In this document: positions 2,220 through 63,314 of the stretch, one piece after another
How the letters are laid out: every line of letters begins with the position of its first letter
Position numbering within the stretch: position 1 is the stretch's first letter
Assembly: GCF_000009905.1 (NCBI RefSeq)
Contig: NC_006177.1
Location: 1,364,001 to 1,428,000, forward strand
Reading direction: 5' to 3'
From: Symbiobacterium thermophilum IAM 14863
GTDB lineage: Bacteria; Bacillota; Sulfobacillia; Symbiobacteriales; Symbiobacteriaceae
Length of the DNA: 64,000 nucleotides
Notes under the pieces: model-generated
What the model saw: only the letters and a program-made list of their open reading frames with translations
The model's database searches: none
What the model was told of the DNA's origin: nothing
Translations under genes and position numbers: made by a program

Positions 2220-5036
2220 ATGGCTGAGAAGACCGATTACAAAGCGACGCTGAACATGCCCCGCACGGACTTCCCCATGCGGGCCAATCTGCCCACGCGG
2301 GAGCCCGAGCAGCTGAAGAAGTGGGAGGAGATGGACCTCTACAACCTGGTCCAGCGGGCGACGGCAGGCCGGCCGAAGTTCGTGCTGCACGACGGCCCGC
2401 CCTACGCCAACGGCGACATCCATCTGGGCACGGCCCTCAACAAGATTTTGAAGGACATCATCGTCAAGCACGCCACGATGGCGGGCTACGACGCGCCCTA
2501 CGTGCCGGGCTGGGACATGCACGGCCTGCCCATCGAGCTGCGGGCCCTGAAGGACATGAACATCGACCGCCGCAAGATCGATCCCCTGGAGCTGCGGGCG
2601 AAGTGTTATGAGTACGCCCACCACTGGCTGAACGTCCAGCGGGAGCAGTTCAAGCGGCTGGGCGTCCGGGGCGACTGGGAGAACCCCTACCGGACCGTCG
2701 CCCCCGAGTTCGAGGCCAAGGAGGTCGAGGTCTTCGGCGCGATGGCCGCCAAGGGGTACATCTACCGGGGCCTGAAGCCGGTCTACTGGTGCCCGTACTG
2801 TGAGACCGCCCTGGCCGAGGCGGAGATCGAGTACAACGAGAAGACCTCGTACTCCATCTACGTGCGGTTCCCGGTGGTGGATCCCCGCGGGAAGCTCCCC
2901 GAGGGCAGCTACCTGGTGATCTGGACGACCACCCCGTGGACCATCCCGGCCAACCTGGCGGTGGCGGTCCATCCTGAGGTGGAGTACGGCGTCTACGCCA
3001 CCGAGAAGGGCAATCTGGTCGTCGCCACGGCCCTGGCGGAGAAGTTCTTCCAGGCCGTGAACCTCCCGGCCGCGGAGCCCGTGGCCACGCTGAAGGGCGC
3101 CGACCTGGAGGGGATCACCTACCGGCACCTGCTCTATGACCGGGTCTCGCCCGTGATCCTGGGCGACCACGTCACCACCGAGGACGGCACCGGCCTGGTG
3201 CACACCGCCCCCGGCCACGGCCACGAGGACTTCGAGGTGGGCCAGAAGTACGGGCTGCCCGTGCTCAACCCGGTGAACGATCAGGGCGTCTTCACCGCCG
3301 AGGCCGGGCCGTTTGCCGGCATGTTCATCGAAAAGGCCAACCCGGAGATCATCAAGGCCCTGGACGAGGCCGGCATGCTGCTGGGCCAGGGCAAGATCCG
3401 CCACCAGTACGCCCACTGCTGGCGGTGCAAGAACCCGGTCATCTACCGGGCCACGGTGCAGTGGTTCGTCAAGGTGGAGGGCTTCATGGACATCGCCAAG
3501 GAGGCGATGAACCACGTCCGCTGGATTCCCGACTGGGGCTACAACCGCATGTACGCCATGATCGACGGCCTGGCGGACTGGTGCATCAGCCGGCAGCGCG
3601 CCTGGGGGCTGCCGATCCCCATCCTGACCTGCTCCGCCTGCGACGAGCCTTCCTTCGAGCCGAAGATGTTTGAGAAGATCGCCGAGATCTTCCGCGCCGA
3701 GGGATCCGACGCCTGGTGGCGGCGGCCGGCGGAGGACTTCATGCCGGAGGGCGGCCTGACCTGCAAGAAGTGCGGGGGCCGGACGTTCCACAAGGAGAAG
3801 GACATCCTCGACGTCTGGTTCGATTCCGGCTCCAGCCATGTCGGCGTGCTGGAGACCCGGCCCGAGCTCACCTGGCCGGCCGACCTGTACCTGGAGGGGT
3901 CCGACCAGCACCGGGGCTGGTTCAAGTCCTCCCTGCTGACCGCCGTGGTGGCCCGGGACGGAAAGCCGCCTTACAAGGCCGTGCTGACCCACGGGTTCAC
4001 CGTCGACGAGCAGGGGCGGAAGATGTCCAAGTCGCTGGGCAACGTGGTGGACCCCGCCGACGTGATCAAGCGGTACGGCGCGGACATCCTGCGGCTCTGG
4101 GTGGCGTCCACCGACTACCGGCATGACATGGCCCTCTCCGAGAACATCCTGAAGCAGGTGGCCGACGCCTACCGGAAGATCCGCAACACGCTGCGGTACC
4201 TGCTCGGCAACCTCTACGACTTCAACCCCGACACCGACATGGTGGAGCGGGACGACCTGCTGGAGATCGACCGCTGGCAGATGCACCGGCTGCAGGAGGT
4301 CATCCGGAAGGTCACCGAGGCGTATCGGGAGTACGAGTACCACATCGTCTACCACACCCTGAACAACTACTGCGCGGTGGACCTCTCGGCGGTGTACCTG
4401 GACATCCTGAAGGACCGGCTGTACACCAGCGCCCCGGCGTCCCGGGAGCGGCGGTCCGCGCAGACCGTGCTCTATCACGTGGCTGATGCCCTGATCCGCA
4501 TGCTGACGCCCATCCTGACGTTCACCGCCGAGGAGGCGTACAGCCACCTGCCCAAGCCGGCGGGATCGCCGCCCACCTCGCAGCTGCTCATGATGCCCCA
4601 GCCCGATCCCGCCTACCTGGACGAGAACCTGGCGGCGGAGTGGGACCGGCTGATGGAGCTGCGGGACGCGGTGCAGGTGGTGCTGGAGCGGGCCCGGGTC
4701 GACAAGCTCATCGGCTCCAGCCAGGAGGCCGCCGTGAACCTGTATGCCAGCGGCGGCGAAGGCTCGTGGGCCGAGCTGCTGGACAGGCACCTGCCCGACC
4801 TGCCTTCGATCTTCATCGTGTCGGACGTGAAGCTCTTCGTGGGCGGCCAGTCGGCGCCCAGCGGCACGTACTTCGGCGAGGGCCCCGGCGACCTCTCGGT
4901 GGAGGTGGTGCGGGCTGAGGGCGAGAAGTGCGAGCGCTGCTGGAACTACCGGAAGGTCGGCGCCATCGAGCAGCACCCGACGCTCTGCGAGCGCTGCGCG
5001 GGCGTGGTGCTGTCGCTCAATCTCGACAACGCCTAA
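2220..5036 (+). CDS. ileS: Isoleucyl-tRNA synthetase
   Basis: A 938-residue class I aminoacyl-tRNA synthetase that charges tRNA-Ile. The HIGH-type motif is HLGT at about residues 68-71, inside [15 protein letters not shown]. The editing domain spans roughly residues 200-390, with [13 protein letters not shown] near its start. KMSKS is at about 601-605, followed by the anticodon-binding domain. The C-terminal zinc knuckle has CERCWNYRK and CERC near residues 903-926, the bacterial type found with this class of IleRS. AAGGAGCGG precedes the ATG. Expression is controlled by the T-box upstream. Confidence 0.98.
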
Positions 5037-5042
5037 GCAGGT

Positions 5043-5074
5043 CGGCGGCGGGGGGATATGTCCCCCCGCCGCCG
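5043..5074 (+). terminator. Hairpin downstream of ileS
   Basis: A 14-base perfect stem (5043-5056 with 5061-5074) around a TATG loop begins six bases after the ileS stop. There is no clear T-run, so it may be a pause or mRNA 3'-end stabiliser rather than a full intrinsic terminator. Confidence 0.55.
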
Positions 5075-5135
5075 CGCGGAGCCGCCGGTCGGTCTTCCCC
5101 CCGAGACCAGCGGGGAGGAGGCCCCCACCAAGCGC

Positions 5136-5168
5136 CCGAGGGCTGCGGCACGACGCCGCAGCCCTCGG
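5136..5168. terminator. Perfect 14-bp inverted repeat between converging ileS and tatA
   Basis: Arms 5136-5149 and 5155-5168 (CCGAGGGCTGCGGC and its complement) flank an ACGAC loop. It lies between two convergent genes and could end transcription from both sides, although neither side has a strong U-tract. Confidence 0.6.
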
Positions 5169-9015: not shown

Positions 9016-10116
9016 TTACAGGGTCGGGGGCGTCCAGGTGTCGGCCTCCTGCGGCGTCTCGGGGACGACCACCTTGCCCTCCTTGATGGCCTCGGCCCAC
9101 TTGTCGACCTCGGCCTTGGTCCCCTCGGGCATCTTATCCCACAGGGTGGTGTCCGAATAGCCGACGCCGTTCTCCGCGAGGCCGAGCCGCACCACCTGGC
9201 CACCCGGGAAGTTGCCCTCGAGGGCCATCTTGATCACGTCGTAGACGGCCACGTCGACCCGCTTGATCATGGAGCTGAGGACGTTGTTCGGGGCCAGGTA
9301 GTTCTGGTCCGAGTCAACACCGATGGCGAACAGGTTCTTCTCCTTGGCGGCCTCGATCACGCCCTGGCCGGTGCCGCCGGCGGCGTGGAAGATGACGTCG
9401 GCGCCGGTGTTGAACATCGTGAGGGCGATGTCCTTGCCCCTGGCGGGATCGTCGAAGGCGGCCGCGTAGACGACGTCAACCACGGCGTCAGGATTGGCAG
9501 CCATCACGCCGGCCCGGAAACCCGCCTCGAAGCGGCCGATGACGGGGCTCTCGACGCCGCCGACGAAGCCGACCCGGTTGGTCTTGGTGGCCTTACCGGC
9601 GAGGTAGCCGACCAGGAAGGAACCCTCCTGCTCCTTGAACAGCACCGAGGCGACGTTGGGCTGGTTGACCTGCTCGTCGATCAGGCCGAACCACTGGTCG
9701 GGGTTGGCCTGCGCCATCTCGTCGATGGACGCCTGCATCATGAAGCCGACGCCCCAGACGATGTCCGCGCCGCCGTCGATCAGGGTCTGCAGGTTGGTGA
9801 TGTAGTCCTCCTGGCGCTGGGACTCAATCACGATGTGCTTGACGCCCAGGTCCTTTTCGGCCTGCAGGATACCACGGTAGGCGGCGGCGTTGAAGGAGTC
9901 GTCGTTCAGGCCGCCGACGTCCGTGGCCATACCGACGGTGAAGTCGACCTGCTTCGAGGGCTCCTGAGTCTGCTGCTGCGGCGGCTGCTGCTCCTGGCCT
10001 GCCGGGGGCTGCGTGCTGGGCGTCTGATTCTGCGGCTGCTGCGAACCACCGCAGCCGGCCAGCAGGGACAGGGTGAGGGCCACAACGGCAACCTTGGCGA
10101 ACCATTTGTGAGCCAT
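9016..10116 (-). CDS. BMP family nucleoside-binding lipoprotein
   Basis: A 366-residue lipoprotein and the first gene of the importer operon. It has a signal peptide with lipobox LLAGC (Cys about residue 22), then a Gln/Pro-rich spacer, then the BMP/PnrA fold beginning FTVGMATDVGGLNDDSFN. Family motifs include WGVGFMM, VGFVGG near residue 190 and FHAAGGTGQGVIEAA. The protein would sit on the outside of the membrane and deliver nucleosides to the NupOPQ-like complex. A purine nucleoside ligand is likely by family but not proven. Confidence 0.93.
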   Translation of the reverse strand: MAHKWFAKVAVVALTLSLLAGCGGSQQPQNQTPSTQPPAGQEQQPPQQQTQEPSKQVDFTVGMATDVGGLNDDSFNAAAYRGILQAEKDLGVKHIVIESQRQEDYITNLQTLIDGGADIVWGVGFMMQASIDEMAQANPDQWFGLIDEQVNQPNVASVLFKEQEGSFLVGYLAGKATKTNRVGFVGGVESPVIGRFEAGFRAGVMAANPDAVVDVVYAAAFDDPARGKDIALTMFNTGADVIFHAAGGTGQGVIEAAKEKNLFAIGVDSDQNYLAPNNVLSSMIKRVDVAVYDVIKMALEGNFPGGQVVRLGLAENGVGYSDTTLWDKMPEGTKAEVDKWAEAIKEGKVVVPETPQEADTWTPPTL

Positions 10117-33569: not shown

Positions 33570-34479
33570 TCAGCCTGACCTGGCCGTCCAACTGTTCGGC
33601 CGGACCTTCCGTACCCCCGTCTGGGCCGCATCCGGCTGCTTCGGTTACGGTCGGGAGTTCGCCGGCGTGTTGGACCTCTCCCGGGTCGGTGCGATCTGCG
33701 TCAAGGGCACGTCCATCGAGCCCTGGACGGGCAACCCGGGGATCCGGGTGGTGGAGACGCCCGGCGGCATGCTAAACGCCATCGGCCTGCAGAATCCCGG
33801 GGTCGACCACTTCCTGACGGTGGACTGGCCGTGGCTGCAGGAGCAGGGGGCGACGGTGATCGTCAACATCGTCGGCCGGACGGTGGAGGAGTACGTCGCC
33901 GTGGCCAGGCGGCTCGAGGGGACAGGTGTGGCCGCGGTGGAGCTGAACATCTCCTGCCCCAACGTGAAGGAGGGGGGGATGGCCTTCGGGACCACCCCTG
34001 GGAGCGCGGCCGCGGTCACGGCCGCCGTGCGGAAGGCCACCACCCTGCCGCTCATCGTGAAGCTCTCCCCCAACGTCGCCGACGTCGTGGCGATCGCCCG
34101 GGCGGTGGAGGACGCCGGCGCCGACGGGCTGTCGGTGATCAACACCCTCCAGGGCATGTCCATCGACATCCGGCGCGGCAGGCCGCACCTGGGCAACGTC
34201 TTCGGCGGCCTGTCCGGCCCCGCGATCAAGCCCGTCGCCCTGCGGATGGTCTGGCAGGTGGCCGGGGCGGTGAAGGTGCCGGTGATCGGCGTCGGCGGCA
34301 TCATGTCCGGCGAGGACGCCGCCGAGTTCCTGATGGCCGGGGCATCGGCCGTCCAGGTGGGCACCGCCTGCTTCATCGACCCGCGGGCGCCCCTCACGAT
34401 CGCGGAGGAACTGGCCCGATTTATGGGAGAGCACGGGTTTCGGAACGTACGCGCGCTGGTGGGCGCCGCGCGGGGCTGA
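33559..34479 (+). CDS. pyrD: Dihydroorotate dehydrogenase, class 1B catalytic subunit
   Basis: A 306-residue FMN barrel enzyme that oxidises dihydroorotate to orotate. Motifs are GIRVVETPGGMLNAIGLQNPGV, the catalytic ELNISCPNVKEGG with the base Cys near residue 133, VINTLQGMSIDI and VPVIGVGGIMSGEDAAEFLMAGASAVQVGT. The catalytic cysteine and the adjacent pyrK assign it to class 1B (NAD-dependent). GTG start inside the end of pyrK. Confidence 0.97.
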   Translation: MASDQPDLAVQLFGRTFRTPVWAASGCFGYGREFAGVLDLSRVGAICVKGTSIEPWTGNPGIRVVETPGGMLNAIGLQNPGVDHFLTVDWPWLQEQGATVIVNIVGRTVEEYVAVARRLEGTGVAAVELNISCPNVKEGGMAFGTTPGSAAAVTAAVRKATTLPLIVKLSPNVADVVAIARAVEDAGADGLSVINTLQGMSIDIRRGRPHLGNVFGGLSGPAIKPVALRMVWQVAGAVKVPVIGVGGIMSGEDAAEFLMAGASAVQVGTACFIDPRAPLTIAEELARFMGEHGFRNVRALVGAARG

Positions 34480-34561
34480 CCCGCCGTACCCACCGAGCGG
34501 GGGATCCGAAGGTCTTGTGGCTGGTGACGGCAACGACGAAGGCCATGGAGGAGGACGGCCC

Positions 34562-35158
34562 ATGACGCTTGGCTTGACCCCTGAGGAGGTGCTGGACATC
34601 CTGCGCGCCACCGGGGCCCTGCTGGAGGGCCACTTTCAGCTGACTTCGGGGCGCCACTCGGACCGCTTCTTCCTCATGCCGCACACGCTCCAGCACCCTC
34701 TGCAGACCGAGCGGCTGTGCCGCGCCCTGGCGGCACGGTTTCAGGAGGACGAAGTGGAAACCGTCGTGGGACCGGCGACGGGCGGCATCATTCTGGCTTA
34801 CGAGGTGGCCCGCCAGCTGGAGCGGCTGACCGGTCGGCCCGTCCGGGCCATCTTCACGGAGAAGACGGAGGACGGCGGCATGGCGCTGAAGCGTCAGTGG
34901 CGGCTGCGGTCCGGCGAACGGGTGTTGGTGGTGGAGGACGCGATCACCACCGGCGGGTCGGTTGTCAAGGCCATCGCAGCCCTTCAGGCGTATCAGCCGG
35001 CGCTGGTCGGCGTCGGCTGCATCGTGGACCGCTCACGGGGCGCCGTTGATTTCGGCGTGCCCCTGCGCCCGCTGATCCGGGTGGACGTGGAGTCCTGGCC
35101 GCCGGATCGGTGTCCGCTCTGCCTGGCCGGGGTGCCTGTGGTGAAGCCGAAGGCGTAG
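34562..35158 (+). CDS. pyrE: Orotate phosphoribosyltransferase
   Basis: A 198-residue enzyme joining orotate and PRPP to make OMP. The PRPP loop is VLVVEDAITTGGSVVKAI near residue 120, and FTEKTEDGGMALKRQW is the flexible loop region. GHFQLTSGRHSDRFFLMP near residue 20 is the family N-terminal block. It is the last gene of pyrRBCKDE; the PyrF needed for the next step is encoded at 18028. GGAGGAGG precedes ATG 34562, which I prefer over an upstream in-frame GTG. Confidence 0.96.
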   Translation: MTLGLTPEEVLDILRATGALLEGHFQLTSGRHSDRFFLMPHTLQHPLQTERLCRALAARFQEDEVETVVGPATGGIILAYEVARQLERLTGRPVRAIFTEKTEDGGMALKRQWRLRSGERVLVVEDAITTGGSVVKAIAALQAYQPALVGVGCIVDRSRGAVDFGVPLRPLIRVDVESWPPDRCPLCLAGVPVVKPKA

Positions 35159-35185
35159 TTAGCACTCATCGTCTCCGAGTGCTAA
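35159..35185. promoter_or_regulatory. CIRCE element (HrcA operator)
   Basis: TTAGCACTC (35159-35167), nine bases, then GAGTGCTAA (35177-35185): a perfect nine-base inverted repeat with the canonical nine-base spacer. It starts right at the end of pyrE, lies eight bases upstream of a -35 box and 71 bases before the fmdB-type start. HrcA would bind it as a repressor. Confidence 0.93.
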
Positions 35186-35192
35186 CTGCCCC

Positions 35193-35221
35193 TTGAATCT
35201 GTATTCCCACCCAGGTAAAAT
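35193..35221 (+). promoter_or_regulatory. Promoter of the FmdB-type zinc ribbon gene
   Basis: TTGAAT (35193-35198) and TAAAAT (35216-35221) are separated by exactly 17 bases, the strongest-looking sigma-A promoter in this part of the window and immediately downstream of CIRCE. Confidence 0.8.
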
Positions 35222-35256
35222 TACGTCATGATTCCTCAGCAAGGGGGGAGACAGGC

Positions 35257-35532
35257 ATGCCGATCTACGAGTTCAGGTGCAACGCATGCAATCACCTCTT
35301 CGAAGAACTGGTCCCGCTGAATACCACGGGTGAGAATCAGAAGTGCCCTGAGTGCGGGCACGTTGGCGCAAGGCGGCTGGTCTCCGCCTTCGCTGCGCAC
35401 GGTCTGGAGAACGGGCATATTGCGGTGGGGCAGAAGCTGACGAGCCTGGACAAGGCCCGGGCGTCCGGCAAGTCCGAGAGCAAGTCCGGCGAGAGCAAGT
35501 CCTCGGGCGAGAGCGCCAGCAAGTCGGCGTAA
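35257..35532 (+). CDS. FmdB family zinc ribbon protein
   Basis: A 91-residue protein with an N-terminal FmdB-type zinc ribbon: YEFRCNACNHLFEELVPL and QKCPECGHVGARRLVSAF give a CxxC...CxxC site. The rest is a low-complexity tail of Ser, Lys and Glu (GKSESKSGESKSSGESASKS). AAGGGGGGAG precedes the ATG. FmdB proteins are annotated as putative regulators but their role is not known. The CIRCE element and strong promoter upstream imply heat-shock-type control by HrcA. Confidence 0.88.
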   Translation: MPIYEFRCNACNHLFEELVPLNTTGENQKCPECGHVGARRLVSAFAAHGLENGHIAVGQKLTSLDKARASGKSESKSGESKSSGESASKSA

Positions 35533-35547
35533 GCGGAGTCCACTGGG

Positions 35548-35573
35548 GAGAGACCGGCTGCGGCCGGTCTCTC
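35548..35573 (+). terminator. Hairpin after the FmdB-type gene
   Basis: Eleven-base perfect arms (35548-35558 and 35563-35573) with a TGCG loop, 15 bases after the stop. Only TTGCTGTT follows, so termination may be partial. Confidence 0.6.
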
Positions 35574-35626
35574 TTGCTGTTGGATTTCGTCAAGTGGTAT
35601 CATGCTGGGGAGGGAGGGGACACGGA

Positions 35627-35887
35627 ATGCGGCGAATCAAGTACAGAGACGAAGAGTACCTGGTTCACACCCGTTCTGGCATGCGGCTGATCGACGCTCT
35701 GGTGGAGCAGGGCGTCCCCGTCACCTGTGACTGCGACGGCAGGGCGCACACCACCGAGCAGTGCCTGGTGCAGTGGCCGAAGGATACGGCCTTCCTTCTT
35801 ACTGAGCCCACCGAGTTCGAGCGCCGGCAGCTGGGCGACCGCTTGGAGAAGGGGCACCGGCTCGCCTGCCAGGCGCTGTTCAAGTGA
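35627..35887 (+). CDS. Small ferredoxin-like protein with atypical cysteine spacing
   Basis: An 86-residue protein whose C-terminal half resembles plant-type [2Fe-2S] ferredoxins (FERRQLGDRLEKGHRLACQA), while the N-terminal half is a short beta-grasp-like stretch (YLVHTRSGMRLIDALVEQGVPVTC). Cysteines are at residues 34, 36, 46 and 81. The usual first three ligands follow C-x5-C-x2-C, here replaced by C-x-C-x9-C, so cluster binding is uncertain. GGAGGGAGGGG precedes ATG 35627. I cannot assign a partner or pathway. Confidence 0.7.
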   Translation: MRRIKYRDEEYLVHTRSGMRLIDALVEQGVPVTCDCDGRAHTTEQCLVQWPKDTAFLLTEPTEFERRQLGDRLEKGHRLACQALFK

Positions 35888-35897
35888 TCCGCACGTG

Positions 35898-35932
35898 AAG
35901 GGAGCACCGACCCGCGTCGGTGCTCCCTTTTT
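35898..35932 (+). terminator. Intrinsic terminator
   Basis: Fourteen-base perfect arms (35898-35911 and 35916-35929) with a CCGC loop and a TTTTT tail, 10 bases after the stop of the ferredoxin-like gene. Confidence 0.93.
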
Positions 35933-36033
35933 CCGCGCCCATCCCTCCGGTCCGAACGTTGCGGGGCGGGCGGGTGGAGAAGGACCGGCCGCGGTTCGGG
36001 AGGGGGGCCAGGCACCCGTAGGGTCTCTGGACT

Positions 36034-36059
36034 ATCCGTTCTGTTCGCACCGACTGTTG
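36034..36059 (+). repeat. Left copy of a 26-bp inverted repeat (CTGTTCGCA family)
   Basis: The 16-base core ATCCGTTCTGTTCGCA is followed after three bases by ACTGTTG. The copy at 37572-37597 is on the opposite strand and matches at 24 of 26 positions, so the pair brackets the IS1595-like gene and the heptamer array. Confidence 0.8.
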
Positions 36060-36107
36060 GTGTCGCCCGCCATCCTGCCGGCCCGCCCGGATGCCGCCGG
36101 TTCGTCG

Positions 36108-36129
36108 AGATCACCCGCACGGGTGATCT
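36108..36129. promoter_or_regulatory. 22-bp perfect palindrome upstream of the IS1595-like gene
   Basis: Arms AGATCACCCG and CGGGTGATCT flank CA. It sits nine bases upstream of the -35 box, the position of an activator or repressor operator. Confidence 0.6.
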
Positions 36130-36138
36130 GTCCCGGTC

Positions 36139-36166
36139 TGGACAACGAACTCGTGTTCGCTACAAT
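36139..36166 (+). promoter_or_regulatory. Promoter of the IS1595-like gene
   Basis: TGGACA (36139-36144) and TACAAT (36161-36166) each match five of six consensus bases and are spaced by 16. The start codon is 35 bases downstream. Confidence 0.7.
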
Positions 36167-36201
36167 GGAACTCGGATCCCGAAACGGGAGGTGCCTCCAC
36201 G

Positions 36202-37251
36202 ATGTCTGCCCGGTTGCCCGGCCTGAGGCCGTCCCCTGCACCGTCCCTTGCACCGTCCCCGCCGGTTGGGCAGGAAGGATGGACGCCGAAGGCGTGTCCC
36301 TGGTGTGGGGCAACAGGGCAGGTGACCCGATGCGGCGGGTTCCGGACGGCGTCTGGTCGGCGTGTGCAGCGCTACCGCTGCGGGGCCTGCTGCCGAACGT
36401 TCAGCCGGAACACCGGTACCCCGAGCTACCGGCTCCACAAACCCTCGGCTTGGCAGGCCATGATCGAACTCCTCGCGGAGAGCCTGCCGCTGCGGCGGGT
36501 CGCGTCCCGCCTGAACATCAGCGTGTCGACGGCGTTCCGCTGGCGCCACCGCGCCCTGACGGTGCTGAGCGCCCGCGACCGGAAGCCGCTGTCCGGCGAC
36601 GTCAGGGTGGAGACCTTTCTTGTGAAGTACTCAGAAAAGGGCAGCAGAGTCTGCCACGGCCCGGGTAGCTGGGGGTACTGGAACGTCGTCCGCAAGGGGG
36701 AGGAGCCCGTCGGCCGGGTGCGATCGGGCCAGTCAGCCGGCCGGCGCCGCTTCCGGCTCTTGATCGATGGCAGGCCGCTGCACGTGATGGTGGCTGAGAC
36801 CGACACCGGGTATGAGTTCGACATCCTGGGGCAGGGCAGGCGCAACGCGGAGATGGTGGCGGCCGGCCTCGCCAGGTTGATCCGGCCCGGTTCACGCGTG
36901 TTTGCGTTCGGCGGATCCGAGTACCGGCGGGCCTGTGAAACGCTGGGCTGCGAACATCACGATGGGGTTGCCGCCGTGAGCCGCTGGTTCCAGTGCCTTC
37001 GCGGCGCCGAGGAGGGTGGCGCGAGCCGTGGGGCTGAGGAGGTGACCACACCGGAGGTCCGTTTTCCCAACCTCCCGATTTGGTGGCTTCGCCGTTTCCG
37101 CGGTGTAGCCACCAAGTACCTGGGCCATTACCTGGCGTGGTTCCGCGACATCGTGCGGATCGTGGAGTTTCCTGCTGGGGCGAACATGGCATCGGCGGAC
37201 GGGCGCGCCTTGCTGCGCAGACCCGCTGACTGGGGGGTGCCGCCGACCTGA
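36202..37251 (+). CDS. IS1595-family transposase-like protein lacking catalytic residues
   Basis: A 349-residue intact frame. An N-terminal zinc ribbon has CPWCGATG and CGACCRTF. A helix-turn-helix follows (LPLRRVASRLNISVSTAFRWRHRAL, about residues 93-117). The C-terminal block RRFRGVATKYLGHYLAWFR is typical of IS1595-group transposases. The expected catalytic DET motif reads VET in GDVRVETFLVKYSEKG. The expected SD near the second acidic position reads FGGSEYRRA before CEHH, and the N/H/E segment is replaced. GGGAGG precedes the ATG, and the gene has its own promoter and a palindrome. It is either a decaying copy or a protein kept for DNA binding. Confidence 0.8.
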   Translation: MSARLPGLRPSPAPSLAPSPPVGQEGWTPKACPWCGATGQVTRCGGFRTASGRRVQRYRCGACCRTFSRNTGTPSYRLHKPSAWQAMIELLAESLPLRRVASRLNISVSTAFRWRHRALTVLSARDRKPLSGDVRVETFLVKYSEKGSRVCHGPGSWGYWNVVRKGEEPVGRVRSGQSAGRRRFRLLIDGRPLHVMVAETDTGYEFDILGQGRRNAEMVAAGLARLIRPGSRVFAFGGSEYRRACETLGCEHHDGVAAVSRWFQCLRGAEEGGASRGAEEVTTPEVRFPNLPIWWLRRFRGVATKYLGHYLAWFRDIVRIVEFPAGANMASADGRALLRRPADWGVPPT

Positions 37252-37443
37252 TGGACCGTGGACTGCCGTGAGCGCGCGGTGACGGCCTCGGCCTGCCATC
37301 GTTCGGCCCAGTTTCGACGCGCCGCTGGTGCCCTCTGTCCTGGGGTCGCCGGGCCCCTTCGCTACGGGCACTTCCTTCCACAGGCCACACTGGCTCGAGA
37401 GCGAGCAGATGGACCACCTCCCGCCGCCGCCCGGCGCCCCGGC

Positions 37444-37569
37444 GCCCGGCGCCTGGCGCCTGGCGCCTGGCACCTGGCATTTGGCACCTGGCATTTGGCA
37501 CCTGGCATTTGGCACTTGGCACTTGGCACCTGGTACTTGGCACCTGGCACCTGGCGCTTGGCGCCTGGC
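37444..37569 (+). repeat. Heptanucleotide tandem repeat array, about 18 units
   Basis: From 37451 to 37569 there are 17 consecutive 7-base units of the form RYYTGGY, mainly ACCTGGC, ATTTGGC, ACTTGGC and GCCTGGC. One more, GCCCGGC, lies at 37444-37450. The alternation of ACCTGGC and ATTTGGC units (37472-37513) gives a 14-base higher-order period. This is a minisatellite likely to vary in copy number. Confidence 0.95.
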
Positions 37570-37571
37570 GT

Positions 37572-37597
37572 CAACAGTGGCTGCGAACAGAACGGAT
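37572..37597 (-). repeat. Right copy of the 26-bp inverted repeat (CTGTTCGCA family)
   Basis: On the minus strand the core ATCCGTTCTGTTCGCA is followed after three bases by ACTGTTG. It begins two bases after the heptamer array and points back at the IS1595-like gene. Confidence 0.8.
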
Positions 37598-37726
37598 GGG
37601 CTGCGTCCCCACCTCTCAGCCCCCGTCCGGGGGCAGGGTCTGGCTGTGAACCTTTCCCGCGCCGCACGCGCTCCTAACAGGCAGATGAGACCGGAATCGG
37701 ATGCGCACAGGGGGAGGAATGCAGGG

Positions 37727-38041
37727 ATGATCGTGACGACGACCCCTTCCGTTGAGGGGCGCCAGATCGCCGAGTACCTCGGGATTGTAAGCGCCGAGGC
37801 CATCATGGGCGCCAACTTTTTCCGTGACCTCGCCGCCTCGATCACGGACCTGATCGGCGGCCGGGCAGGTTCTTATGAGTCCAAGCTGCGTGAGGGCCGG
37901 GAAGAATGTCTCCGGGAGCTGGTGGCCGAGGCGGCGCGGCTGGGCGCGGACGCCGTGGTCGGGGTCGATATCGACTACGAGGTCGTCGGAGAATCCATGC
38001 TGATGGTTACCGCCAGCGGCACGGCCGTTCGGTTGCGCTGA
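37727..38041 (+). CDS. YbjQ/UPF0145 family protein
   Basis: A 104-residue protein of the YbjQ (DUF74, heavy-metal-binding-like) family. It has the typical opening [39 protein letters not shown] and the C-terminal [32 protein letters not shown]. The family forms a pentameric beta ring; the function is not known and metal binding is only suggested by name. GGGGAGG lies nine bases before the ATG. No operon partner is evident; the cupin gene follows after about 60 bases. Confidence 0.9.
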
Positions 38042-38104
38042 GCCAGTCTCTCCCGGGAGTCTGGCCCGCGTCGGGCACATGGTCGGGTGTTCCGCGGGGA
38101 TGCT

Positions 38105-38470
38105 ATGGCGGGGGTGATCGCGACGGAGCAGACCAACCTGGCAGCCGTTTCCCTGCTCTCTGAAGCCCGTTTCACCAAGCGCATCTGCTTCAGCAACCCG
38201 CAGGTCCTGGTGTTCGTGCTCACCTTTGCGCCGGGCCAGGAGCTGCCGAAGCACAGGCACCCCGGTTCCACGCTCGTGGTTCACGTCACGGGGGGATCCG
38301 GGGTCGTGGTCGCAGACGGCCGTGAGACGCCGGTTGCGGCCGGCGACATCCTGCTGGTGGAGGGCGAAGAGGAGTTCGCCGTGCGCAATACGGGCAGCGA
38401 GGCCCTGGTGCTTCTGGCCAGCCTGAGCCCGAACCCTTCGGACCCGCGCTACGCGCAGCCCGTGGGGTGA
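38105..38470 (+). CDS. Cupin domain protein
   Basis: A protein of about 121 residues with a single cupin barrel. Motif 1 is represented by PGQELPKHRHPGSTLVVHVTGGSG and motif 2 by GDILLVEGEEEFAVRNTGSE. HRH plus a downstream acidic position would form the usual metal site. Single-cupin proteins of this type often sense or bind small metabolites; no enzyme activity can be named. I prefer ATG 38105, with CGGGGA upstream, over GTG 38087. It ends about 80 bases before the glycerol dehydrogenase gene. Confidence 0.82.
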   Translation: MAGVIATEQTNLAAVSLLSEARFTKRICFSNPQVLVFVLTFAPGQELPKHRHPGSTLVVHVTGGSGVVVADGRETPVAAGDILLVEGEEEFAVRNTGSEALVLLASLSPNPSDPRYAQPVG

Positions 38471-38553
38471 TCTCGCTCCTGGGCCGACAGCGGGGAGCGC
38501 CGAGTCTTCGCACCAAGAAACCAGGTGAGTAGCAGCAGGGGAGGAATCTGCAC

Positions 38554-39654
38554 TTGAGCAAGGTGATCGTTGCACCCGGCAAGTACATCCAAGGCCCGGG
38601 GGAGTTGGACCGGCTGGCCGAACACACCGGCCAGCTCGGGGCGCACGCCTTCGTCATCGCCGACGAGTTTGTCATGAATCTGACCGGTGACCGCGTGACC
38701 GCCAGCTATGCCAAGGCAGGGGCCGCGGTGACGATGGAACGCTTCCAGGGGGAGATCACCCAGGCCGAGATCGAGCGGCTGACGGCGCGCTGCAAGGAGT
38801 CTCAGGCCGACGTGGTGGTGGGCATCGGCGGCGGGAAAACGTTGGATTCCGCCAAGGCAGTCGCCTACTACTGCGGCAATCTGCCCGCAGTCGTCGTGCC
38901 GACCGTGGCCTCCACGGACGCGCCGTGCAGCGCCCTGTCGGTGATCTACAAGGAGGACGGCTCGTTCGAACGGTATCTGTTCCTGCCGTCGAACCCGGCT
39001 GTCGTCGTCGTCGATACGGCGATCATCGCCAACGCGCCCGTCCGACTCCTGGTCGCGGGCATGGGCGACGCGCTCGCCACCTACTTTGAGGCGCGCGCGG
39101 CCCAGCGGGCCCACAAGCTGAACATCGTCGGAGGACACGGCACGCAGGCGGCCATGGCGCTGGCCCGGCTCTGCTACGACACCCTGCTTCAGGAGGGCAT
39201 CAAGGCCAAGGCTGCGGCCGAGGCGCACGTGATCACCGAGGCCCTGGAGCGGATCGTCGAGGCCAACACCTACCTCAGCGGGCTGGGTTTTGAAAGCTGC
39301 GGGCTGGCGGCCGCCCACGCGATCCACAACGGCCTGTCCGCCCTGGAGGAGACCCACGGCGCCTACCACGGCGAGAAGGTGGCCTTCGGCACCCTCGCGC
39401 AGCTCGTCCTCGAGAACGCGCCCCTGGACGAGATCGAGGAGGTCATCGAGTTCTGCCTGAACGTGGGCCTGCCGGTGACGCTCGCAGATCTGGGGGTGCA
39501 CACGGTCCGGGAGGAGCAGATCCGCCGGGTGGCTGAGCTGTCCTGCGCCGAAGGGGAAACCATCTTCAACATGCCGTTCGAGGTGACGCCGGAGAAGGTG
39601 TACGCCGCCATCCTGACGGCTGACCGGCTGGGTCACCTGTACAAGGGCGGTTGA
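38554..39654 (+). CDS. gldA: Glycerol dehydrogenase (iron/zinc-type)
   Basis: A 366-residue NAD-dependent dehydrogenase that oxidises glycerol to dihydroxyacetone. The NAD site is VVVGIGGGKTLDSAKAVA near residue 90. Metal ligands lie in GMGDALATYFEAR (Asp near 171) and in GLAAAHAIHNGLSALEETHGAYHGEKVAFG (two His near 253 and 270). SKVIVAPGKYIQGPGEL is the usual GldA N terminus. It starts at TTG with GGGGAGG upstream. No dihydroxyacetone kinase is adjacent. Confidence 0.95.
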   Translation: MSKVIVAPGKYIQGPGELDRLAEHTGQLGAHAFVIADEFVMNLTGDRVTASYAKAGAAVTMERFQGEITQAEIERLTARCKESQADVVVGIGGGKTLDSAKAVAYYCGNLPAVVVPTVASTDAPCSALSVIYKEDGSFERYLFLPSNPAVVVVDTAIIANAPVRLLVAGMGDALATYFEARAAQRAHKLNIVGGHGTQAAMALARLCYDTLLQEGIKAKAAAEAHVITEALERIVEANTYLSGLGFESCGLAAAHAIHNGLSALEETHGAYHGEKVAFGTLAQLVLENAPLDEIEEVIEFCLNVGLPVTLADLGVHTVREEQIRRVAELSCAEGETIFNMPFEVTPEKVYAAILTADRLGHLYKGG

Positions 39655-56613: not shown

Positions 56614-56758
56614 GTGTACAATCTGTTCGCACCCAGTGTTGGCCGAGGCGGCGCCGGTCAGCGTGTGGTCTGTTCGCATCGAGTATGGGTCGGAGCGGTG
56701 CCCGGGCAGCGTGCAGTCTCTTCAGAACGAGTTGCTGTTCGGGGTGAACCTGGGCGGC
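56614..56758 (+). repeat. Three imperfect tandem repeats of 48-49 bases
   Basis: Units run 56614-56662, 56663-56710 and 56711-56758. Each starts GTGTR or GTGCA, continues with a TCTGTTCGCA-like segment (degenerate in the third) and ends in GTCAGC, GGCAGC or GGCGGC. Units 1 and 2 are the most alike. Confidence 0.5.
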
Positions 56759-56950
56759 GTGCGCTTTACTCGTACTGAATGATAACAGGGGTGGTCCCAG
56801 GGATCACGCGCCCGGCCCGCGTCGGGCGTGCACGGGGGTGCCCCCGGGACGGATGGTCGCCCGGCGCACCGCACGAGTAGCGTGTTGGGTACCTCAGGCG
56901 AAATCGCCGCAAGGGCGGCGGTGGGGGAGGCGCGTCTCCCCCGGACCGAC

Positions 56951-56970
56951 CGTCGTGGCGAACAGATCGG
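56951..56970 (-). repeat. CTGTTCGCA-family motif, minus strand
   Basis: Read on the minus strand: CCGATCTGTTCGCC. It ends 48 bases before the small membrane protein gene. Confidence 0.45.
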
Positions 56971-57018
56971 ACAGTCCGCGGGGACCTTCACGGCCCTGCC
57001 GTCCTACCAAGGGAGGGG

Positions 57019-63063: not shown

Positions 63064-63218
63064 TAGGCAAGTTTGGCTCGCGTGCGCAGAGGGAGGCGGG
63101 GGTAGACCCGATCCGCACGGGGAGGGAACGGGAAAGGCCGCCTGGCGGATGGCCAGGCGGCCTGGAACGTAGTCGGGCCGGGCGTCGGGGATGGGATGGC
63201 TCTGCGGCGCCCGTGGCG

Positions 63219-63239
63219 TCTGTTCGCATTTCCTGTGGG
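63219..63239 (+). repeat. CTGTTCGCA-family motif
   Basis: TCTGTTCGCATTTCCTGTGG, a further intergenic copy of the motif that brackets the IS1595-like gene, 96 bases upstream of the -35 of the next gene. Confidence 0.5.
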
Positions 63240-63314
63240 TGGGTATGGTGGGGCCACAGGGCAGGATCGAGGGCAGCTGGTACTGCGCGATCGGCACATT
63301 CGGGATGTTGCGTG

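Follow-up and report, generated by a model that had tools for sequence, protein, structure and literature searches.

An IS1595-derived gene without catalytic residues in Symbiobacterium thermophilum, and the dispersed end-repeat arrays of a possible REP/RAYT-like system

The gene described here belongs to Symbiobacterium thermophilum IAM 14863 and lies in a 64,000-nucleotide stretch of its 3,566,135-bp genome (positions 1364001 to 1428000 of contig C1 of genome G000), which as a whole is called the window. It derives from an IS1595 transposase and is flanked by inverted copies of a repeat unit of about 30 bp, which is also found in gene-less arrays in related genomes. Transposases without a catalytic triad are usually read as dead relics, whereas here a whole triad-less clade is conserved, together with an operator-like promoter and dozens of convergent arrays of the ancestral end, some of them shared between species and some new. 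On balance, we favour a REP/RAYT-like system that arose from an IS1595 (DDE/DDNH) transposase, with this gene as its long-resident copy.

The protein family has lost its catalytic residues while purifying selection has kept the zinc ribbon, the helix-turn-helix (HTH), a remodelled integrase fold, and a constrained C-terminal block, and the former transposon end has become the unit that flanks the gene copies and also forms the gene-less convergent arrays. We infer that the protein binds this bipartite unit (TCTGTTCG followed by TGTTGRT), that it pairs the left and right arrays, and that it represses its own promoter through the palindrome called P2 below and perhaps also through P1, with the arrays probably growing through tandem duplication and copies occasionally reaching new sites by a route that would do without the normal triad of this protein. 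If the binding is true, the REP/RAYT way of life would have originated a second time, independently and from a DDE enzyme, and if the insertions described below for the related genome G002 arose without an intact helper, the question is raised of how DNA moves without a triad. Both questions can be tested at the orthologous sites, some occupied and some empty. No description of this system was found in the literature searched, a scope outside which the founding IS1595 paper (Siguier 2009) lies.

A conserved family without the catalytic triad

The window gene is a single copy in its own genome, and matches to it at 1e-5 were found in 4 of 61 genomes (its own and 60 relatives), namely G000, G001 and G002 of the same genus and G004 of the same family. 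Eleven full copies were used, that is, the window gene, L018, L019 and L024 to L028 of G002 (an 88%-complete metagenome-assembled genome, or MAG), L011 and L014 of G001, and L012 of G004, while the fragment L023 lies at the edge of a contig. When these were aligned with 15 relatives reading DDNH, the triad was present in none of the 11 copies; the column of the first aspartate (D1) reads E, G, R or S, no D stands at the second (D2) in any of the 11 in the MAFFT alignment, and D189 is the sole acidic residue invariant across all 11. Copy L019 retains N..H, and a one-residue shift would restore D2 there, with D1 still absent. The aligned columns spell DDNH in all 15 of the rows counted as active, it being by this very motif that they had been grouped. 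These rows are a sample, as is the second triad-less set presented at the end, and L078, L087, L088, L089, L095, L097, L098 and L101 (short, partial or same-place duplicates) were left out before the residue table was made, with L087 looking active-like. The loss of the catalytic residues had already been claimed in the initial annotation and is borne out, although not in the register given there, which had the DET motif reading VET: the ungapped catalytic Asp column is E137, not V136, and the structure agrees.

The full-length reading frame and the descent from IS1595, both claimed from the start, also stood up to analysis, with zinc ribbon, HTH and integrase-like fold all kept (Table 1). The window protein scores 58.3 bits against the NCBIfam profile for IS1595, below the curated cut-off of 75, and HTH_23 alone passed its gathering score in Pfam; in line with an N-terminal zinc ribbon, NF050000 was matched in 29 of the 32 members of the alignment, the window protein not being among those at 1e-5. 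The structure model used was built on the 32-row alignment (predicted local distance difference test, pLDDT, 76.8; predicted template modelling score, pTM, 0.72), a first model from 11 rows having been set aside as weak (pLDDT 65). VIA-align gave it a Z of about 9–10 to retroviral integrase cores (among Foldseek's best 1000 chains), and model residue 131 pairs with residue 58 of HIV integrase, which brings E137 to D64, a residue that we take to be catalytic. A sequence search of the PDB returned zinc-finger matches only and was uninformative, and an Rfam scan of 34000–38600 gave no match.

Selection has kept this family. All 11 full copies have open reading frames, and the ratio of nonsynonymous to synonymous substitution (dN/dS) is 0.15–0.40 over 36 pairs of nine copies, these being counting-method values (NG86) with a high dS between species; purifying selection, and not the value near 1 against which the initial annotation had proposed to check its reading, is what was found. 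The window gene compared with its orthologues gives 0.26 (L026) and 0.22 (L014), and the G002 paralogues give 0.15–0.26 at a dS of 0.21–0.47, their dS to the window gene being 0.77–0.95. By region, dN/dS among the G002 paralogues is 0.02 at residues 130–156 and 0.13 in the C-terminal block, and between the window gene and the G002 copies it is 0.04 in the C-terminal block and 0.60 in the HTH, segments 130–156 and 288–321 being the most constrained in most comparisons. The triad-less family forms one clade (support 99/95) with the window gene as sister to five G002 copies, and support for a group of the active rows is no higher than 86/69, in a tree that is midpoint-rooted, excludes A_L029 and does not fix the number of triad losses.

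Table 1. Features of the window, in window coordinates
Feature	Position	Strand	Basis or remark
Intergenic site without array	5027..5138	.	Corresponding sites in G001 (L139) and G002 (L142) carry arrays
Left end-repeat unit	36032..36061	+	Flank comparison
Palindrome P1, core TCACCC-N4-GGGTGA	36108..36129	.	Palindrome of the initial annotation
Promoter TGGACA-16-TACAAT	36139..36166	+	-35 at 36139-36144, -10 at 36161-36166; block conserved among copies
Palindrome P2, CGAAC-N4-GTTCG	36146..36159	.	Fills the -35/-10 spacer; conserved in copies
Ribosome-binding site GGGAGGTG	36187..36194	+	Read from the sequence, upstream of the ATG
IS1595-derived gene without catalytic DDNH residues	36202..37251	+	349 aa plus stop; synteny, alignment, dN/dS
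Zinc ribbon C32/C35/C60/C63	36295..36390	+	Cys invariant in 32/32 rows of alignment A3
HTH region, residues 78-124	36433..36573	+	Pfam HTH_23, 4.5e-6; modelled helices 81-92, 97-103, 108-124
Residues 131-322, integrase-like (RNase H) fold with remodelled core	36592..37167	+	Structural match, constraint
7-bp minisatellite, 17.4 copies	37448..37569	.	Between gene and right repeat
Right end-repeat unit, inverted	37570..37599	-	Flank comparison
Gene-less cluster of end unit (+ + -)	56614..56974	.	Unit scan of the window
Solo end unit	63211..63240	+	Unit scan of the window

The end-repeat unit and its arrays

The inverted flanks of the gene (36034–36059 and 37572–37597) are identical at 24 of 26 bp, as first described, and each is one unit of a non-unique repeat of about 30 bp that reads GCATCCGGTCTGTTCG-N6-TGTTGGT or similar. 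Active IS1595 ends have the same box spacing (GGCTCTGTT-N9-TGTTGAT in L102, and similarly in L074, L085 and L086), so that by box spacing the terminal inverted repeats are of the IS1595 family type, with different start bases. Wherever both flanks of a copy are readable, the units to its left are direct and those to its right inverted. Their numbers (left/right) are 1/1 in the window copy, L025, L026 and L027, 2/1 in L024, 2/2 in L028, 4/1 in L018, at least 5/4 in L011, 1/1 plus a weaker second left unit in L012, and 3/1, of a variant unit, in L019; foldback-type ends, that is, inverted tandem units, are found in L011, L018, L028 and the gene-less arrays, and not in the four 1/1 copies first listed.

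A census at E 0.5, scoring 150 candidates per genome, gave 18 units in G000, 100 in G001, 71 in G002 and 5 in G004. G001 was picked for array extraction as the census pointed there, and its counts are therefore not a random sample: a position weight matrix (PWM), trained on units from the same genomes that it scanned, found 112 units with a score of at least 18 over 472.6 kb of G001, and none in the reversed-sequence control. All 34 two-strand clusters are convergent (+..+-..-), another 13 clusters having units on one strand only, and the unit consensus itself is not palindromic. The number of units on each side of an array ranges between 1 and 17, and the unit endings are genome-specific, TGTTGAT closing 85 of 112 units in G001 vs. 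3 of 70 in G002. The PWM scan missed L019, the unit of which is a TGGCGTGTTCGCTTT variant, and weak matches in the window at 9313 and 42327 were taken as chance.

The census units listed for G001 all lie on contigs C3, C8, C11 and C14 of about 70, a regional clustering. In G002, contigs C54, C73, C86, C92, C202 and C42 end inside or beside arrays, and the array lengths of this MAG are therefore probably underestimated. Tandem repeats occur in or beside 10 of the 11 gene elements (L011, L014, L018, L019, L024–L028 and the window copy), those of the G002 copies being 15-bp coding repeats that lengthen the protein.

Occupied and empty sites in related species

Synteny at the window locus extends over three species, the flanks having 76–81% nucleotide identity. 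Its orthologue in G002 is L026 (about 80% in both flanks), and in G001 it is L014, across a contig break, with the left flank on C3 and the minisatellite, inverted unit and next gene on C14. Five gene-less array sites are common to G001 and G002 (L141, L142, L143, L144 and L176 vs. the G001 arrays), and both of the two that are readable in G000 are without units there (window 5027–5138 and G000 1357555–1357724). Array L137 is confined to G001, the corresponding places in G000 and G002 being free of units, and at the site of L018 a single solo unit is kept in G001.

Three gene copies of G002, L024, L025 and L028, stand at sites where the element is missing from those other species that could be read. 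The L024 site is empty in G000 and holds a different open frame without units in G001; the L025 site is empty in G001, and L025 is flanked on both sides by the 9-bp duplication GGTCGCACA; and the L028 site is empty in G001, while its counterpart in G000 is taken up by a group II intron reverse transcriptase (3176258–3178325; L129:2115–3734, minus strand; PF00078 and PF08388). These three look like insertions in the G002 lineage, the alternative being loss in the other species. No target duplication was found at the window copy or at the G002 gene copies other than L025. The proposal of a domesticated gene therefore stands in part: that three species have kept the gene vertically at one locus, and that it is under purifying selection after the loss of the triad, holds, and a single immobile gene does not, given the dispersed arrays and the three G002 sites. 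Recent transposition, which had been named beforehand as counting against that proposal, is apparent for the sister copies and not for the window copy.

Arrays also mark a rearrangement. In locus L133 (G001:C14:17299–18242), what lies to the left of the window solo unit (63068) is joined with what lies to the right of window array B (57000), and the locus is, as these joined flanks indicate, a rearrangement breakpoint at arrays.

A promoter with two palindromes

The promoter and ribosome-binding site are where they had been placed at the outset. The palindrome P1 is likewise there, and it is not the perfect 22-bp one announced, since a CA centre of 2 nt separates its two 10-bp arms. Its core has 11–12 of 12 matches in 8 of the 11 copies, and in the 3.57-Mb genome P1 is unique at 0–2 mismatches, with 2 further sites at 3 mismatches. 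The palindrome P2 has at least 9 of 10 matches in all 11 copies, a score of 9 being reached by 0.5% of shuffled upstream regions; in L019 the best-scoring place for P2 is elsewhere, yet the aligned promoter reads AGAACGCGGGTTCG. The GTTCG of P2 is the core of the end-repeat unit, and therefore the protein would be the natural candidate binder of P2. A conserved promoter with two palindromes fits autoregulation.

Weighing the explanations

Several observations weigh against a REP/RAYT-like system. G002 has at least seven gene copies, whereas RAYTs are single-copy (PMC3116915, in the part available); most G001 units lie in tandem arrays and are thus not independent events; and the window genome has few units, only 18 at E 0.5 or less, and is without arrays at several sites, so that a strong host need is doubtful. 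The main doubts, however, are the scarcity of target duplications, an 8-of-8 duplication being found in only 1 of 35 elements (L025, 9 bp) at a null rate of 0.2% per pair, and an unsampled helper transposase, which could be missing from view because G002 is an incomplete MAG. Such a helper would be an intact IS1595 transposase that has since been lost or has escaped sampling, and it may have moved the elements while the triad-less protein was kept as an end-occupying competitor damping transposition. We regard this as unlikely: the L025 duplication with its empty site in G001, the resemblance of the ends to active IS1595 ends and the selection on the protein all agree with it, but no IS1595 match over the cut-off was found in the five Symbiobacterium-family genomes G000–G004 (3 of 31 genomes searched overall have one), and in the G002 paralogues the segment of the former catalytic strand is one of the best-conserved parts, something not required of a pure repressor. 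That same segment, with its dN/dS of 0.02, and the triad-less copies at the three G002 sites would suit a self-mobile element of altered chemistry, cut by the remodelled core (YSEKGSR-x-x-NGPGSWGYWN, LIDGRP) or by a recruited host nuclease; a D1 column that varies, D189 as the only invariant acidic residue and one duplication in 35 elements speak against it, and we find it quite improbable.

We give still less credence to a host-domesticated chromosome or transcription protein with the arrays as functional docking sites (e.g., insulators or domain markers), for which the synteny of the gene in three species, the five array sites common to G001 and G002 and the confinement of the listed G001 units to 4 contigs can be cited, since array length varies, lineage-specific sites are frequent and the window genome has no arrays at either shared site readable there. 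As for an ordinary insertion sequence in decay, its ends left as fossils, the single copy in the window genome and its missing target duplication are what such a relic might leave, but the low dN/dS, the open frames in all full copies, the conserved promoter and the synteny in three species make it scarcely credible; ordinary decay is ruled out about as firmly as sequence data allow. Going beyond the REP/RAYT-like system favoured here, a bolder claim is that the triad-less elements still spread, with the remodelled core or a recruited partner driving insertion and array growth of the end units. Bacillota would then contain several independent triad-less lineages of a REP/RAYT counterpart derived from DDE enzymes, and this we hold to be doubtful.

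Relation to known systems

With the IS1595 family (zinc-ribbon, DDNH-type), the system shares zinc ribbon, HTH, integrase fold and bipartite TCTGTT..TGTTGAT ends; it differs in its missing catalytic residues, its sub-threshold profile score, its ends iterated as arrays and starting with TATCC/GCATCC instead of GG, and apparently the near absence of target duplications, which are of 8 bp in the family. As in the REP/RAYT systems and REPINs, going by the portion of PMC3116915 at hand, a transposase-derived gene is flanked by repeats dispersed as inverted pairs between genes, but a RAYT is a tyrosine (HUH) enzyme and REPs are single-stranded hairpins, in contrast to a DDE-type fold without triad and to non-palindromic double-stranded units in tandem arrays of up to 17. 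The window protein is indeed not of the Y1/HUH tyrosine type, having an IS1595 profile match and an integrase-like fold instead. Foldback-like elements such as Galileo have long inverted ends of tandem transposase-binding sites, comparable to the units that our protein would bind, but Galileo has a eukaryotic P-superfamily transposase and, in the sections of the source available, no conserved triad-less protein (PMC3688188). Comparable in their protein are the ciliate Merlin copies without a conserved DDE motif, IS1595 relatives with preserved frames and changed DDE for which domestication was suggested, although the available part of that report gives no recognisable ends or repeat arrays for them (PMC8101967).

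Other triad-less relatives in the phylum

A search of the phylum gave matches at 1e-8 in 19 of 398 genomes and a second set of 15 triad-less IS1595-like proteins in three further clades, with purifying selection (a dN/dS of 0.18–0.49 in nine pairs) and simple IS1595-like inverted ends near many members; in L076 and L094, the catalytic domain is missing altogether. Triad-less IS1595-like proteins occur, often several per genome, in G256, G171, G280, G205, G303, G370, G136, G126, G231 and G198 (L073–L101).
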